64,000 bases of DNA from Polynucleobacter sp. AP-Latsch-80-C2. Its GTDB lineage: Bacteria > Pseudomonadota > Gammaproteobacteria > Burkholderiales > Burkholderiaceae. Shown here piece by piece: positions 5,287-39,021 of the stretch (positions are counted from its first letter, which is position 1; each line of letters starts with the position of its first letter). Both the position numbers and the translations under genes were made by a program. The notes below the pieces were generated by a model. The model worked only from the letters and a program-made list of their open reading frames with translations. It had not been told where the DNA came from and ran no database searches. The stretch spans positions 1 to 64,000 of the forward strand of contig NZ_JACVOY010000002.1 of the NCBI RefSeq assembly GCF_018882185.1. Direction: 5' to 3'.

Positions 5287-7377
5287 ATGGACAATGGGCA
5301 TATGTCGCCATTCATTCTAAAAATCATTGAAACTCTTCGCCAAAGCAGTGCTGCTCTGCCGAAAGAGCTGATTTTGGAAGCCATCAGTGAAAATGCTGAA
5401 AATCTCGATACGCTATTTAATATTGCGATCGAATGCGCTCAAAACAACCGGCTTGAGCAAGCAATAGGCATATTGACCCAATTGGCCCAATTCAGAAAAG
5501 AGGATCCTGGGATTTTTTATAGCCTGGGGTTTATTGCCTCCCTCAAACACGAGCATGAAAAGGCGATTGAGCTTTATGACAGAGCCATTGAATTAGATCC
5601 GCAAGATCCAGCGGCGCTAATCAATAAGGGCGCCTCACTCAATGAGCTAAAGCGCTATGAAGAGGCCTTAATTGCCCTAGACAAGGCCATTGCCTTAAAT
5701 CCTGGCGCTGGACAAGCTTGGTCAAATAAGGGTACCGCACTAAATGCGCTGAAGCGCTATGAAGAGGCTCTCGCCCACTATGACAAAGCGCTCAAACTAA
5801 ATCCTGGCTATGTAGAGGCCTTACTCAACAAGGGCGTGACCTATGCCGAGCTGAAGCGCTATGAAGAGGCTCTCGCCCACTACAACCAGGCTCTTGCACT
5901 TCATCCTGGCGATGTAGAGGCCTGGTCTAACAAAGGTACTGCACTCCATGAGCTCAAGCACTATCAGGCTGCTGCGGAGAGTTTTAAAAGAGTCATAGAG
6001 CTAGATCCTCAATTCCCTTTTGGAAAGGGCGTTCTCCTACATGCCAAGTTGCACGCCTGTGATTGGGCCGACATTGACGATTTATACCGCAGCATTTGCA
6101 GGAATATCTCTGAAAATAAAAAATCAGCAGATCCCTTTGGGTTCCAAGGCATTTGTGATGATGAAGCTCTATTAAAAAAATGCGCAGAAATTTTCTCACT
6201 GGCCAAATTTCCGCCACAAAAAAAATTACATTCAGGGCAAGCCTCCAAAAATCATCCCAAAATTCGGATTGGCTATCTTTGCGGGGAGTTCAGAGAACAA
6301 GCCACTGCTATTTTGATGACTGAGCTCTGGGAGCTGCATGATAAAAAACAATTTGAAATTTATGCCTTTGATAATGGCTGGGACGATCAGAGCCCTAGGC
6401 GAAAAAGAATCGAAGATGCCTTTGATGGGCTGATAGACATCTCCCGAATGTCAGATGCGCAGGCAGCTAAGGCCATCTTAGATAAAGAAATCGATATTCT
6501 GGTCAATTTAAATGGCTTCTTTGGCAGACCAAGACAAGGCGTCTTTGCTAGAAAGCCCGCGCCCATTCAGGTGAATTACCTTGGCTTTCCTGGAACCATT
6601 GGCGCAGACTACATTGATTACCTCATTGCCGATAGCGTCGTCATTCCTGATGACAGCAGACAGCACTACTTTGAAAAAATCGTGCGCTTGCCGCATTGCT
6701 ACCAAACCAATGACTCCAAAAAGATCATTTCCGATAAGCAATTTACTCGGGAAGAATTAGGCTTGCCAAAAGAAGGTTTTGTATTTTGCTGTTTTAACAA
6801 TAGCTACAAAATTCTTCCGCAGACCTTTGATATCTGGATGAAGATACTGCACGCTGTTAAAGACAGCGTCTTATGGCTGATTGAAGATAACCAAGAAGCT
6901 AATCAAAATTTAAGAAAAGAAGCTCAGGCAAGAGGCATTGATCCAGCACGAATTATTTTTGCAAAACGCCTTTCGCTAGCCGATCATCTCGCAAGACATC
7001 GCTGCGCAGACTTATTCTTAGATACGCTTCCCTATAATGCACACACCACTGCGAGTGATGCACTTTGGGCTGGCCTTCCAGTCATTACATTAACGGGGAG
7101 CACTTTCCCCGGCCGAGTCGCTACAAGCCTACTGAAGTTCATCGATTTACCTGAGCTCATTACGAGCTCATCTGCAGCGTATGAAAACTTAGCGATTGAA
7201 TTGGCGAATAACCCAGAAAGACTTGGGCAAATCAAACAGCAGTTAGATCGAAATCGACTCACTGCCCCATTATTCGATGCGCCGCTATTCACGAAAAATA
7301 TGGAAGCGGCCTATGCAGCCATGCATCAACGCGATCTGGCGGGATTGCCGCCAGAGCATATCGATCTTAAAAACTAG
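5287..7377 (+). CDS. TPR-repeat protein with SPINDLY/O-GlcNAc transferase C-terminal domain
   Basis: Large soluble protein of 696 residues. Residues about 75-240 are five 34-residue tetratricopeptide repeats (for example YEEALAHYDKALKLNPG), several nearly identical in protein and DNA. Residues about 325-680 match the glycosyltransferase family 41 (SPINDLY/OGT) domain: IRIGYLCGEFREQAT, then IQVNYLGFPGTIGADYIDYLIAD, then FCCFNNSYKILPQTFDIW, then FLDTLPYNAHTTASDALWAGLPV. Such proteins transfer a sugar from a UDP-sugar to protein Ser/Thr; bacterial targets are mostly unknown (flagellin or adhesins in some). No signal peptide, so cytoplasmic. ATG at 5302 is an alternative start; neither has a strong ribosome site. 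No obvious substrate gene is adjacent. Confidence 0.88.
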   Translation: MDNGHMSPFILKIIETLRQSSAALPKELILEAISENAENLDTLFNIAIECAQNNRLEQAIGILTQLAQFRKEDPGIFYSLGFIASLKHEHEKAIELYDRAIELDPQDPAALINKGASLNELKRYEEALIALDKAIALNPGAGQAWSNKGTALNALKRYEEALAHYDKALKLNPGYVEALLNKGVTYAELKRYEEALAHYNQALALHPGDVEAWSNKGTALHELKHYQAAAESFKRVIELDPQFPFGKGVLLHAKLHACDWADIDDLYRSICRNISENKKSADPFGFQGICDDEALLKKCAEIFSLAKFPPQKKLHSGQASKNHPKIRIGYLCGEFREQATAILMTELWELHDKKQFEIYAFDNGWDDQSPRRKRIEDAFDGLIDISRMSDAQAAKAILDKEIDILVNLNGFFGRPRQGVFARKPAPIQVNYLGFPGTIGADYIDYLIADSVVIPDDSRQHYFEKIVRLPHCYQTNDSKKIISDKQFTREELGLPKEGFVFCCFNNSYKILPQTFDIWMKILHAVKDSVLWLIEDNQEANQNLRKEAQARGIDPARIIFAKRLSLADHLARHRCADLFLDTLPYNAHTTASDALWAGLPVITLTGSTFPGRVATSLLKFIDLPELITSSSAAYENLAIELANNPERLGQIKQQLDRNRLTAPLFDAPLFTKNMEAAYAAMHQRDLAGLPPEHIDLKN

Positions 7378-34210: not shown

Positions 34211-36544
34211 CTACTGAAGTTCGCGTACGCCGCCGCCGTTAGAGAACTCAGGGATAAACCAATCGCCATCGACCTGTGTTACTCCACTGGGCACTTCACG
34301 TGCCTCTTGTGGCACATCCTTCAAGGCAATACCCATATAAGAAATCCACATAGGCAAAGCCAAGCCACCACCAGTTTCACGATCACCTAAGCTCGCTGGC
34401 TTATCAAAACCAATCCACGCGATCGCTACAACTTTAGGGTTGTAGCCAGCAAACCAAGCATCATGTGATTCATTGGTTGTACCGGTTTTTCCAGCAATAT
34501 CATTACGGCCTAACTTAGCACGAGCGGATGCTGCAGTTCCCGTCTTCGTTACCTCTTGCAGCATGCTATCCATCACAAAGGCAGTGCGAGCGTCTAAGAC
34601 TCTTGTTGCATCTTCGCGAGCATGGGTTGGCTTCGCTTCAAATAAAACTACGCCTTTGGAGTCGACCATCTTGTCAATCAGAAATGGGTCAACGCGATAG
34701 CCGCCATTGGCAAATACGCTATAGGCTGATGCCATTTGTAGTGGAGTAACAGATCCCGCGCCCAATGCCATTGTCAAATAGGGTGGGTGCTTTTCTGGTT
34801 CGAAACCAAAACGCTGAATATATTCCTGTGCATAAGAGGGGCCAATAGCGCGAATGATGCGTACTGAAACTAAGTTTTTAGATTTAGCTAAGGCATTGCG
34901 TAAACGCATCATGCCGTCATACTTCCCATCGTAATTCTTTGGCTCCCAAGCTTGGCTGCCAGTCTCCATGCTGCCGATAGATAGAGGTGCATCATTTACG
35001 ACAGTGCTTGGAGAAAAACCTTTTTCAATTGCGGCTGCATAAATAAAAGGCTTGAAGGAGGAACCTGGCTGACGCAGGGCTTGAGTAACGTGATTGAATT
35101 GATTGCGGCGGAAATCAAAGCCACCTACCAAAGACAGGATGGCTCCGGTTTCAGCGTTCATAGAGACAAAAGCAGCCTCTACTTGCGGCAACTGCGCCAA
35201 CTTCCACACTCCACCATCTGATAGCAATCTCACGATCGCGCCTGGACGTAAACGTTTTTTAGGCTGAGCGCTATCAGTGAGCGATGCTGTAGCCAACTTC
35301 AGACCTTCGCCTTTAATTGCAATCACATCACCTGTTGAAATCATGACCTGCATTTCTTTTGGTTTGACATCGAGCACAACACCAGACTGCAAATCATCTA
35401 ACTGTGGGTAAGCCAAAAGAGCTTCATCGATTGCGCGTTGACGTTTTACGGGATCCTCAGGCAGTGTGATGAATCCCTCTGGTCCGCGATAGGCATGACG
35501 TAAGTCGTACTCAAAAATGCCACGGCGCACTGCTTTATAAGCCGCTTCCTGATCAGCCTTCAAGATCGTCGTATACACATCGATACCTTGAGAGTAGATT
35601 GCATCGCCATACTGCGTAAAGAGTAATTGCCGAACCATTTCAGCAGGGAAATCTGCCCGCACACTGAATTCATTGCCTAGGCCGCGAATATGTAACTCCT
35701 CAGCGATCGCCTTTTGATAATCCTCTTGTGAGATATAGGACAAATCGCGCATCCGCTGCAAGATATATTCTTGACGAATCTTGGCGCGCCGGAAATTGGT
35801 CACGGGGTTATAGGCTGATGGCGCCTTAGGCAATCCTGCCAACATAGCCGATTCTGCAATAGTGATGTCTTTTAGTTCTTTACCAAAGTAAATTTGCGCC
35901 GCACTAGAAAATCCGTAAGCCCTTTGGCCCAAGAAAATCTGATTCATATAGATCTCAAGGATCTTGTCTTTGGTCAGTTGTGATTCAATTTCCCAAGACA
36001 ATAAGACTTCATATATTTTGCGGCTAAATGTTTTCTCATTGCTGAGAAAGAAATTTCGTGCGACTTGCATCGTGATAGTGGAGGCGCCCTGAGAAAGGTT
36101 GCCACGCAGATTGGTCACTGCCGCCCTAAGGATGCCAACATAATCAACACCCCCATGTGAATAAAAACGATCATCCTCAATAGCGAGAACTGCATTACGC
36201 ATACTTTGTGGAATCTCATTCAAAGGAATCACCTTACGGCGCTCCTCACCAAACTCACCAATCAAAACCTTATCCGCTGTATAGATCCGCAAAGGCGTTT
36301 TCGGGTTGTAATCCGTTAAGGCAGAAATCTTGGGCAAATTGGGTTTAGCAATTAAAAATGCATAGCCCATTAATAGCGCCACCACCACTGCAAACACCAC
36401 GCCAATAATGAGTAGGGCTTTGACTAATGGATTGCTAGAAGATCTTTGAGGATGTGCTTGTGCCCCATATTGCCGAGGACGTCTGTCAGGCTGACGGGGG
36501 GTTCGCTGATTGATCGGCGGCTTGTCTTTAGGGGGTAGAGCCAT
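34211..36544 (-). CDS. mrcA: Penicillin-binding protein 1A, bifunctional peptidoglycan synthase
   Basis: Class A PBP of 777 residues. A basic cytoplasmic tail (1-40) and one membrane anchor (about 41-66) precede the glycosyltransferase domain with Glu123 in AIEDDRFYSHGG. The transpeptidase domain has the SxxK motif at Ser495-Lys498 in QPGSSFKPF, an SKN motif in AKSKNLVS and KTG in AGKTGTTNE. An OB-like insert (about 390-450) fits PBP1A. The protein polymerises and cross-links peptidoglycan. It is divergent from the secretin gene pair, the usual mrcA-pil layout of Burkholderiales. Confidence 0.96.
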   Translation of the reverse strand: MALPPKDKPPINQRTPRQPDRRPRQYGAQAHPQRSSSNPLVKALLIIGVVFAVVVALLMGYAFLIAKPNLPKISALTDYNPKTPLRIYTADKVLIGEFGEERRKVIPLNEIPQSMRNAVLAIEDDRFYSHGGVDYVGILRAAVTNLRGNLSQGASTITMQVARNFFLSNEKTFSRKIYEVLLSWEIESQLTKDKILEIYMNQIFLGQRAYGFSSAAQIYFGKELKDITIAESAMLAGLPKAPSAYNPVTNFRRAKIRQEYILQRMRDLSYISQEDYQKAIAEELHIRGLGNEFSVRADFPAEMVRQLLFTQYGDAIYSQGIDVYTTILKADQEAAYKAVRRGIFEYDLRHAYRGPEGFITLPEDPVKRQRAIDEALLAYPQLDDLQSGVVLDVKPKEMQVMISTGDVIAIKGEGLKLATASLTDSAQPKKRLRPGAIVRLLSDGGVWKLAQLPQVEAAFVSMNAETGAILSLVGGFDFRRNQFNHVTQALRQPGSSFKPFIYAAAIEKGFSPSTVVNDAPLSIGSMETGSQAWEPKNYDGKYDGMMRLRNALAKSKNLVSVRIIRAIGPSYAQEYIQRFGFEPEKHPPYLTMALGAGSVTPLQMASAYSVFANGGYRVDPFLIDKMVDSKGVVLFEAKPTHAREDATRVLDARTAFVMDSMLQEVTKTGTAASARAKLGRNDIAGKTGTTNESHDAWFAGYNPKVVAIAWIGFDKPASLGDRETGGGLALPMWISYMGIALKDVPQEAREVPSGVTQVDGDWFIPEFSNGGGVRELQ

Positions 36545-36649: not shown

Positions 36650-37378
36650 ATGGTTTTTATATTCCAAGAAATGAAGAATATTGCCATGCCATCACGCCAT
36701 ATTTCCCCACAATCTTTTGACTCTATTTTGAGCGAACTCGGTGATGATCCAGCCATCCCAGATCCCCATGGAATTCGTAAATCTGGCGCCCCAAAGACCG
36801 CCATTCCTCAAGCCCCAAACCCTTCAAAATCTCCCTCTTTTTTCGATCCCGTACGTCAGCCTGAACTCCTCAATCAAGTAAAAAAATTAGGGGCTTTCTT
36901 AGCTTTAGCCCTGTGTTTTGTGGGCTTGATCTTCGGCTTATTTTTGGCTTACGACAGCTCTAAAAGCAGCTCAGATACACAAGCCGGGGACTCCAATATC
37001 CAGATATTGAAACTACAAACGGAATTGGCCTTAATGCGCAAGGAGCTTGATGAAGATTTTGATTCTCTATATGAGGAAATAGAATTATTAGAAGTGAGTA
37101 TTCACTCATTAAAGGAGATAAAGCCCAATTCCAAGGCATTCACAAAGCCAAAACCCCATCCTCATGAGCAGGAGTTACGTCGTTGGCGTTATTTAGGCAG
37201 CAGTCAAATGGGGGACATCCAGCAGGCCCTTTTCCATCAGGGCAAATCTCATGCCCTGTTTTCTAAAGGCGCTTTGGTTCTAGGTGAATGGCGTCTTACT
37301 TCAATCGAAAAAGAGCTTGTCACCCTTACTCACCCACAAGGCAAATCTCTTGTTCTTCACACCATGAAAAGCGAATGA
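36650..37378 (+). CDS. Inner-membrane coiled-coil protein with PilP-like C-terminal domain
   Basis: Protein of 242 residues that I do not recognise as a whole. Residues 1-79 are polar and proline-rich, about 80-101 form one transmembrane helix, about 116-156 look like a coiled coil (TELALMRKELDEDFDSLYEE), and about 178-238 resemble the small beta domain of PilP/GspC that contacts a secretin (LGSSQMGDIQQAL, GALVLGEWRLTSIEKELVTL, GKSLVL). The stop overlaps the start of the secretin gene by 4 bases. It stands where pilM, pilN, pilO and pilP are usually found between mrcA and pilQ. ATGs at 36671 and 36686 are alternative starts. The function as inner-membrane partner of the secretin is inference. 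Confidence 0.65.
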   Translation: MVFIFQEMKNIAMPSRHISPQSFDSILSELGDDPAIPDPHGIRKSGAPKTAIPQAPNPSKSPSFFDPVRQPELLNQVKKLGAFLALALCFVGLIFGLFLAYDSSKSSSDTQAGDSNIQILKLQTELALMRKELDEDFDSLYEEIELLEVSIHSLKEIKPNSKAFTKPKPHPHEQELRRWRYLGSSQMGDIQQALFHQGKSHALFSKGALVLGEWRLTSIEKELVTLTHPQGKSLVLHTMKSE

Positions 37379-38484
37379 CTAAAACCCAAAAAAGATGGCT
37401 TCACCTACTGCTGACCCTGGTCATTTCTATCTCCTTTTTAGGGCGCCCAAGCTACGGAAATATGCCAAGCCAAAACTTGGCACAAATGCCAGTTAGCTTA
37501 CATTTCTCAGATATCGAAGTTACCGAGCTTTTACAGGTTTTGGCAAAGCTTGGTGGCAGCAACTTTTTACTGAGTGATTCCATCAAAGGGAAGGTTTCTA
37601 TCAACCTTAACAACACCCCTTGGCAAACCGCACTTCACTCCATTTTGGCTAGCAGGGGTTTGCGCATTATTCGTAATGGCGATATTTATTGGATTGGACC
37701 ACATGCTGAAATCCTGGCTTTTCAAAAATATCGTCGTGAGGATGCAGCACTTCCTTTTGGAGGAGATCACATTCATAGCCCAAGACAAATTTTGATCGAA
37801 GCTCGGATTGTTGAGGCGGATGAGCGCTTTGCAAAGGAGCTTGGGGTTAAGCTGGGATCTCAGGCCAATGCCCTTGGTGGCAATACCGATCGAAACATCG
37901 TTGGCAGCCTAGATTTGAGTGGTGCTGGTCTGAGTGGATTTAACCCTGCGAGCATGGCGGCAACCCTGGTTTCTAAAAATGCTCAGCGGCTTTTGCAGAT
38001 CGAACTCTCCGCCCTGGAGTCAGAGGGACAAGGCAAGATTTTGTCCAACCCGCGCATCATGACAGGGGATCAGGTAAAGGCCACGATTGAACAAGGTACT
38101 GAGCTACCCTATCAAACGACCTCACAAAGCGGCAGCAAACTCCAGTTCCGAAAGGCCAACTTACGTTTAGAGGTACTTCCGAAGATTCATCCAGATGGAA
38201 AAATTTCCATGCTCGTTGGGATCAATAAAGACACTATTGGCATGAAAACTGAGCAGGGATATGCCATTGATACCAAAAGCCTGAGTTCAGAGGTGACCGT
38301 AGAAAACGGGGGCACCGCCATTATTGGCGGAATATTTCAAACTACAGAGCGGGAGGATGAGGTGAAGGTTCCGCTCTTAGGAGATATTCCTATTATTGGT
38401 CACTTATTTCGCCATAAATCCACATTACAAGATAAAACGGAGCTACTAGTCTTCTTAACACCCACCGTTCTAGACAAACCCTAA
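37375..38484 (+). CDS. Short secretin, PilQ/HofQ-like
   Basis: Outer-membrane secretin of 369 residues, about half the length of full PilQ. A signal peptide (MTKTQKRWLHLLLTLVISIS, cleavage near SYG) is followed by one STN/N0 domain (about 41-110: VSLHFSDIEVTELLQVLAKLGG). The secretin core then starts directly at about 137 with RQILIEARIVEADERFAKELGV and ends with VPLLGDIPIIGHLFRHK and LLVFLTP. AMIN domains and the N1 domain of PilQ are missing. Size and layout match HofQ/ComE competence secretins. The frame is open from 37288, but the ATG at 37375 overlaps the upstream stop and gives the signal peptide. Confidence 0.88.
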   Translation: MTKTQKRWLHLLLTLVISISFLGRPSYGNMPSQNLAQMPVSLHFSDIEVTELLQVLAKLGGSNFLLSDSIKGKVSINLNNTPWQTALHSILASRGLRIIRNGDIYWIGPHAEILAFQKYRREDAALPFGGDHIHSPRQILIEARIVEADERFAKELGVKLGSQANALGGNTDRNIVGSLDLSGAGLSGFNPASMAATLVSKNAQRLLQIELSALESEGQGKILSNPRIMTGDQVKATIEQGTELPYQTTSQSGSKLQFRKANLRLEVLPKIHPDGKISMLVGINKDTIGMKTEQGYAIDTKSLSSEVTVENGGTAIIGGIFQTTEREDEVKVPLLGDIPIIGHLFRHKSTLQDKTELLVFLTPTVLDKP

Positions 38485-38496
38485 TAAAATCGAAGG

Positions 38497-39021
38497 GTGA
38501 ACTCTTCAACCAACAATATCTTCCTGATTGGCCTCATGGGCGCCGGAAAGTCGACCGTTGGTAAAGTGCTGGCAAAAAAATTAGGGCGCCGATTTTTAGA
38601 TGCTGACCATCTGATTGAAGATCGTTGTGGCGTGAAGATTCCCGTTATCTTCGAAATGGAAGGTGAAGAAGGATTTCGCAAACGCGAAGCACAAACCATT
38701 CGTGAAGTGACTGCCGAACATGACATTATTTTGGCAACAGGTGGTGGTGCTGTTCTTCTGCCAGAAAATCGTCAAGCACTCAGCGAACAGGGCACCGTCA
38801 TTTATTTGCACGCTAATCCCATTGAACTATGGCATCGCACTAAGGGTGGCGAGGGACGTCCTTTATTAAAAAGTGGTGACCCTAAAAAAATTCTAGAAAA
38901 CTTATATGCGGTTCGCGACCCTCTCTATCGTGAAATTGCTGACCATGTCATTGAAACTGGAAAACCCAGCGTTAATCAATTGGTCAACACCTTAATCATG
39001 CAGCTTGAACTTTCGAACTAA
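38497..39021 (+). CDS. aroK: Shikimate kinase AroK
   Basis: Phosphorylates shikimate at the 3-hydroxyl in aromatic amino-acid synthesis. The 174-residue P-loop enzyme has Walker [12 protein letters not shown] at its N-terminus, the substrate motif [11 protein letters not shown], and FRKREAQ and ATGGGAVLL. The start must be the GTG at 38497: an in-frame TAA lies four codons upstream and there is no other start between. GAAGG abuts this GTG with almost no spacing, so it may rely on reinitiation after the secretin stop 12 bases before. Confidence 0.95.

Follow-up and report, generated by a model that had tools for sequence, protein, structure and literature searches.

The interval between mrcA and aroK in this Polynucleobacter genome (G000; 2.53 Mb in 59 contigs) is filled by two open reading frames on the plus strand. 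The first encodes a predicted PilP/GspC-like protein and the second a short secretin. The features of the locus are given by their positions in the window, which is the whole 64,000-nucleotide stretch of DNA that was analysed.

34211-36544, minus strand: mrcA (penicillin-binding protein 1A), the divergent neighbour that marks the pilMNOPQ slot
36686-37378, plus strand: open reading frame for a PilP/GspC-like bitopic inner-membrane protein of 230 aa; start kept in relatives
36686-36781, plus strand: conserved N-terminal peptide, residues 1-32, from the alignment of relatives; predicted to be cytoplasmic by topology
36881-36952, plus strand: transmembrane segment, about residues 66-89; hydropathy maximum in a 19-residue window from residue 70
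36953-37117, plus strand: long helix and possible coiled coil, residues 90-144, from the AlphaFold2 model; predicted to be periplasmic by topology
37163-37366, plus strand: PilP/GspC-HR-like beta domain, residues 160-227, from hhalign, AlphaFold2 and fold matches
37375-38484, plus strand: open reading frame for a short PilQ-type secretin of 369 aa; 309.6 bits against PilQ model TIGR02515 (cut-off 284.35)
37501-37701, plus strand: N0 (STN) domain, secretin residues 43-109, a Pfam domain match
37702-37782, plus strand: 27-residue linker where outgroup secretins have Secretin_N, from alignment A7
37783-38472, plus strand: secretin core, residues 137-366, from domain matches
38497-39021, plus strand: aroK, the downstream neighbour that marks the slot

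The earlier note on this DNA had counted only two genes between mrcA and aroK, overlapping by 4 bases. The open frames bear out the count; the overlap is the ATGA at 37375-37378, in which the start of the secretin gene meets the stop of the first gene. The open frame described for the first gene is also present, but its start had been placed at 36650, giving 242 aa; the ATG at 36686 (230 aa) appears to be the better start. It is preferred because relatives share an MPxR N-terminus, and several of them have no in-frame start upstream of the conserved ATG. The 32-residue N-terminus is common to 62 of 65 sequences from the genus, among them that of the window; the other three are two cut sequences and L023, which begins MATR. 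Among the 62, the pattern is M-P-x-R-[HQ]-I-..., with 18 of the 32 positions invariant and 26 at least 95% identical. Four deep-branching genomes keep it in the first ~12 residues only. The AlphaFold2 model predicts a short helix at residues 8-17, with low confidence.

In four outgroup genomes (G128, G080, G110 and G104), the interval between the penicillin-binding protein gene and aroK holds pilM-N-O-P-secretin genes, and the secretins are about 480-560 aa long. The two Polynucleobacter genes thus stand in the pilMNOPQ slot, as had been proposed. In G104, Pfam cut-offs are passed by PilM, PilN and PilO, and also by PilP when it is counted together with its neighbours in the frame; in G080, PilM and PilN pass within one frame and PilP also passes. 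PilM alone passes in G110 and PilP alone in G128; the other slot genes of these two genomes were assigned by position and topology. The G080 frame (L186:8094-9644, minus strand) is a PilM-PilN fusion of 516 aa with both Pfam families over cut-off, and in this it resembles GspL from type II secretion.

Other features of the window were also examined. A Y1/IS200-like transposase gene (PF01797; 33494-34198, minus strand), presumably of the kind called RAYT, is flanked by gltB and mrcA. On the opposite side of this locus, next to dgt, a scanned relative occurs in L190 and look-alikes occur in L191 and L192. The 16-mers seen at least three times in the window represent one tandem repeat only; no target repeats therefore stand out. 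A 696-aa protein encoded at 5287-7377 (plus strand) contains an internal tandem repeat of 102 bp in 2.6 copies and is otherwise ordinary; by eye, it consists of TPR repeats followed by an O-GlcNAc-transferase-like part.

The first-gene protein and the secretin

Hydropathy and the AlphaFold2 model agree with the earlier description of the first protein as one membrane helix, a long helix or coil and a beta domain. The model has one helix from residue 62 to 144, followed by seven strands between residues 168 and 226. Confidence is high in both parts (block pLDDT 79-96 for residues 91-140, and mostly above 90 in the seven-strand region).

Used alone as a query, the first gene had no useful sequence match in Pfam, NCBIfam or the PDB. 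The protein does not match Pfam PilP, a model that matched only one of 14 controls, and that below cut-off; nor does it match Pfam T2SSC, for which the best E-value was 0.015 in one of 27 relatives. In profile comparison by hhalign, the match to PilP reached 87.6% (E 3.5e-6 for that single comparison). The top four Foldseek matches of the model are GspC with GspD, two PilP domains and M. xanthus chain Pa; the best E-value is only 6e-3, and none of the four is under 0.001. VIA Z is 9.3 against P. aeruginosa PilP (2.5 A over 68 residues), 9.3 against chain Pa, labelled as PilP, of the M. xanthus T4aP model and 8.4 against GspC bound to GspD (3oss_C). A structural likeness of the C-terminal domain to PilP or GspC had been named beforehand as the point on which the proposal could fall; PilP and GspC-HR domains lead the fold matches.

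The transmembrane segment, linker and HR domain that characterise GspC all appear in the modelled protein. A lipobox was looked for by eye in the first-gene sequence and none was seen; a transmembrane helix is present instead. By profile and predicted fold, the first-gene protein is a PilP/GspC relative. These fold matches suggest a tether of the PilP/GspC type, in which the transmembrane segment and long helix would replace the lipid anchor.

Among relevant families, HofP is matched most often in a Pfam scan of 27 relatives (four of 27, best E 0.05), and it also appears in three members of a scan of 18 relatives; it is kept as a weak lead. TssO, seen in five members of these two scans (best E 0.0058), and various coiled-coil families were taken as chance matches.

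The first protein had been described as the functions of PilN, PilO and PilP condensed into one chain. A true condensation would mean that PilN- and PilO-derived transmembrane and coil segments are fused to PilP, and the topology of a short tail, a transmembrane segment and a helix does resemble PilN and PilO. However, hhalign gives 9.5% against PilN (over 7 columns) and 8.6% against PilO (over 17 columns), and the model shows a helix alone between the transmembrane segment and the beta domain, with no PilN/PilO-type alpha-beta domain. Kinship to PilP alone is seen; since hhalign found no PilN or PilO homology, the description is unsupported, and condensation is a very improbable origin for this protein. 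A PilP-like tether that was kept while PilM, PilN and PilO went from the locus fits better.

The secretin had been described as having a single N0 domain and neither AMIN nor N1 domains. The single N0 domain and the absence of AMIN stand, as does the absence of the third domain, but the label N1 does not: the missing domain is Pfam's Secretin_N, which corresponds to N3 in a V. cholerae PilQ paper (PMC7545093). A domain scan of the 369-aa protein matched neither AMIN nor Secretin_N. Secretin_N lies between N0 and the core in three outgroup secretins scanned singly, and it was matched in four of the 18 members of alignment A7, which holds four outgroup rows. In a survey of T4aP secretins, the dominant order is a variable AMIN, N0, Secretin_N and secretin, and 27 sequences are without AMIN (PMC7545093). 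Against that survey, a secretin that also lacks Secretin_N is unusual. The protein passes the PilQ model, falls far under the cut-off of the GspD model (183.2 against 351.35) and is under cut-off for both NCBIfam HofQ models (201.4 against 554 and 164.8 against 598).

Conservation and selection in the genus

Scanning named genomes yielded 71 loci; the relatives of the secretin belong to Polynucleobacter or to beta-proteobacterial/Burkholderiaceae bins. In 69 of the 71 loci the secretin frame is open over 355 aa or more, and contig ends truncate the remaining two. For the first gene, 65 loci have an intact copy (62 by script; L045, L063 and L064 by reading the printed frames). Five loci cut by contig ends were dropped for this gene (L004, L012, L039, L062 and L072). 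The one broken copy is in L066 (P. necessarius PPGSP2), where the first gene has an in-frame stop while the secretin frame is open.

Values of dN/dS are 0.16-0.30 for the first gene and 0.04-0.10 for the secretin, with purifying selection in nine of nine pairs for each gene; the pairs are non-independent, and dS is above 1 in some. The pair is, by these sequence comparisons, a genus trait under purifying selection. The statement that both genes are intact and do not represent simple decay therefore holds for most of the genus. Decay does occur locally: the pair is broken in genomes G016 and G145, and to these is added the in-frame stop in L066. As a general explanation, a relic under decay is hardly credible, and it is refuted for most of the genus by the 65 intact first genes among the 71 named loci and by dN/dS values well under 1.

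A profile built from 18 first-gene proteins matched 28 of 249 family genomes, all in one genus of 25. Four genus members without a profile match (G005, G028, G178 and G252) have the same arrangement, with a diverged first gene that is shorter (171-199 aa, counted from its first start codon) and a secretin of 356-369 aa. It is shared by five more diverged genomes (G246, G014, G039, G009 and G046). Since the diverged genomes keep the arrangement, the two-gene form is found in each genus locus opened, broken in G016 and G145.

Of 399 genomes of the order searched with a first-gene profile, 85 matched at E up to 0.01. Near-full matches (positions 1-226) and the fragmented match of G145 are confined to the genus. 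Matches to positions about 137-211 in G302, G472, G553, G442 and G624 are PilP-like proteins of T2SS-like clusters, which by eye adjoin PilN/PilO-looking genes; a few more C-terminal matches occur in G321, G325 and G371. Most other order-level matches align the transmembrane and coil region only and were treated as chance. The T2SS-like clusters of the order (L219-L223) comprise a PilP-like protein, PilN/PilO-looking genes and a secretin, and the beta domain has relatives in them, beyond the genus.

The rest of the pilus machine

The locus had been called a two-gene system. This is misleading, as genes for the remaining parts of a type IV pilus machine lie at other places in the genome: those for PilA and ComEC, pseudopilin-like genes and a pilB-pilC-pilD cluster. 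The genome search that the earlier note proposed recovered pilB, comEC and a pilin, but neither PilT nor PilM in G000.

The cluster order in G000 is pilB(359)-pilC(350)-pilD(166)-coaE-zapD. The outgroup G110 has the same gene order with longer proteins (PilB 563, PilC 402 and PilD 271 aa), and the short PilB of G000 aligns from about residue 173 of the G110 protein. It contains the T2SSE domain and scores 388.7 bits against NCBIfam PilB (cut-off 675.65), matching 175-510 of 564. Among the matches listed, this 359-aa protein is the one T2SSE ATPase over cut-off in G000; a comparable frame of 339-405 aa occurs in at least 58 of 61 genus genomes (with an internal stop in G006), the exceptions being G010, which reads 815, G016, where it is broken, and G042, which has none.

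PilC of G000 carries PF00482 and PilD carries PF01478. PF06750 is present in the outgroup PilD (L233) and unmatched in that of G000. The G000 prepilin peptidase (L085:11264-11764, plus strand; 166 aa) consists of the catalytic domain only. In eight other genus loci opened, PilD is 151-167 aa long and by its length lacks the N-terminal domain, which we take to be the methylase part.

PilA of G000 carries PF00114 (E 7.8e-16; frame at G000:C56, L109). Four small frames also lie in a row; three have an N_methyl match, one of them over cut-off, and they are pseudopilin-like. The N_methyl cut-off is exceeded in 60 of 61 genus genomes. PilC and the pilin score best against the HofC and prepilin-peptidase-dependent-pilin models, under the equivalog cut-offs. 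ComEC is present in G000 and was found in 56 of the 61 genomes.

No PilT was found in G000, where the one T2SSE match over cut-off among those listed is the short extension-type ATPase; the outgroup PilT of G110 (L236) is over its NCBIfam cut-off. By score and length, PilT-type frames among the matches listed seem confined to the five genus genomes that match PilM. The only PilM match in G000 (18.4 bits) is MreB, and the ~18-bit matches in most of the genus were set aside once this was clear; frames of 409-429 aa in the same search are presumably FtsA. Five of 61 genus genomes have PilM matches of 62-75 bits, and extra ATPases lie in the same region. These five (G002, G020, G032, G057 and G058; L096-L100) have an additional pilus-like cluster with the PilM-like protein in a frame of 538-580 aa. 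Large and PilT-sized ATPase frames lie in the same region; those of G020 contain stops.

PilO is over cut-off in none of the 61 genus genomes, with a model that misses the E. coli control and the two PilOs scanned in outgroup genus g21. No PilN-like gene is present at the locus of the pair. The PilP model, itself insensitive, passes its cut-off in 34 of 150 family genomes, but not in any of the 15 genus members named; PilN and PilO of g21 fall partly below the Pfam cut-offs. As the Pfam models for PilN, PilO and PilP are weak, absence is judged mostly from reading the locus.

A different reading is that the locus belongs to a reduced type II-like secretion machine with GspC as the partner, a short pseudopilus and a protein cargo. 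The short PilB scores about equally against the GspE and PilB models (390.4 and 388.7 bits, both below cut-off), the transmembrane segment, linker and HR domain of the partner are GspC-like (3oss_C, as above) and, among the matches listed, G000 has no PilT. On the other hand, the slot and the gene orders are those of the outgroup pilM-Q and pilB-C-D, the secretin passes the PilQ cut-off and is far under that of GspD, and the major pilin carries PF00114. Among the matches listed, a further ATPase frame of 469-515 aa (442-468 bits) occurs in at least 16 of 61 genomes, in 15 of them alongside the short ATPase; judged by length and score only, these are taken for separate GspE-like systems. A type II-like machine is therefore improbable.

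Parts of the machine have decayed together. In both G016 and G145, breaks affect the partner gene, the secretin gene, pilB and pilC, while pilD is open; G016 is the only one of the 61 genomes without N_methyl over cut-off, and it is also among the five without ComEC. The other four (G001, G028, G033 and G058) retain both the ATPase and N_methyl proteins, and G028 has an intact pair; DNA uptake is thus not the sole use everywhere. Some of the pilins may come from other clusters in G058 and, judging by their larger ATPases, in G001 and G033, which are fragmented assemblies. These four genomes, together with the lack of PilT in G000 among the matches listed, are compatible with a periplasmic or surface adhesion pilus that takes up no DNA. 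Such a pilus is an unlikely explanation for the genus, given ComEC in 56 of 61 genomes and the presence of G016, with its broken pair, pilB and pilC, among the five without it.

A probable streamlined type IVa machine and known systems

The pair is probably that half of a streamlined type IVa (competence-type) pilus machine which spans the envelope. Its HR-like domain would dock on the N0 ring of the secretin, as PilP does with PilQ, and the long helix would be a spacer across the periplasm. The conserved cytoplasmic peptide would grip either the motor (the short PilB) or the platform (PilC); from its conservation, it is a candidate docking site for the motor. According to a review, PilQ is joined to the PilMNO complex through PilP (PMC10191384); PilM is reported to be cytoplasmic, to lie on the tail of PilN and to be linked to PilB by genetics (PMC3724824). 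With tethering by both tail and HR domain, a single protein would do directly what PilM-N-O do elsewhere. PilB is without the N-terminal region found ahead of the ATPase core in the outgroup, in step with the absence of PilM, and this joint absence fits a contact between tail and motor.

PilA would be assembled by PilB, PilC and a peptidase-only PilD. With no PilT, retraction would be either absent or motor-independent. DNA uptake into ComEC is a plausible role and would be the likeliest use. A stronger version of the proposal is held more tentatively, at somewhat short of an even chance. It states that one GspC-like protein replaces the whole of PilM-N-O-P, its tail recruiting a PilB shorn of its N-terminus and its HR domain holding an N0-only secretin; with no retraction motor and a peptidase-only PilD, this would be a genus-wide, natural minimal machine.

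Such a machine would be drastically shortened, with one small protein for the usual four, and may show how little the machine needs. Several of its parts lack domains found in the outgroup: the PilB N-terminal region together with PilM, Secretin_N, and the PilD N-terminal domain. PilMNOP count as essential to type IVa pili, yet the review argues that stabilising the motor and platform may be all they do (PMC10191384). A cultured lake genus with an outer membrane, a secretin, a pilin and, as far as found, a PilP-like tether only is a natural test of the need for PilMNOP. High rates of homologous recombination with short tracts are reported for 'P. pan.' (taken as P. paneuropaeus) (PMC11283720); the route of DNA entry therefore matters for freshwater ecology.

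No published description of the Polynucleobacter two-gene locus was found in the open-licence literature. The locus is classed as a variant of the type IVa pilus machine, with no published case like it found in the same literature.

The E. coli Hof/Ppd system includes HofB, HofC, HofMNOPQ and PpdD. It resembles the Polynucleobacter machine in that the HofC and prepilin-peptidase-dependent-pilin models are the best for PilC and the pilin, and HofP is a weak Pfam match. Unlike the Polynucleobacter locus, it retains HofM, HofN, HofO and HofP.

GspC of type II secretion shares the bitopic layout, the linker and an HR domain like that solved with GspD in 3oss. In contrast to the GspC system, the Polynucleobacter locus has no GspL/M-like genes; the protein has a long helix between the transmembrane segment and HR domain, and the filament subunit is a PF00114 pilin.

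The type IVa pilus of N. meningitidis, P. aeruginosa and M. xanthus shares the PilP-like beta domain, the N0 domain and secretin core, and the pilMNOPQ genomic slot; PilA, PilB, PilC and PilD are also present in Polynucleobacter. The differences are that no PilM or PilO was found here and no PilT in G000, that the secretin is without AMIN and Secretin_N, and that PilB and PilD are without their N-terminal regions. PilP of the type IVa pilus is an inner-membrane lipoprotein (PMC3724824) and lacks the transmembrane segment and long helix of the Polynucleobacter protein.

PilW of Thermus thermophilus is encoded in the pilP slot, has a GspC-HR-like C-terminal domain and is proposed to bridge PilQ and the inner membrane; Thermus retains PilM, PilN and PilO, unlike the Polynucleobacter locus (PMC13039148). 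The Com pilus of monoderms likewise functions without PilMNOP; it differs in having neither an outer membrane nor a secretin (PMC10191384).
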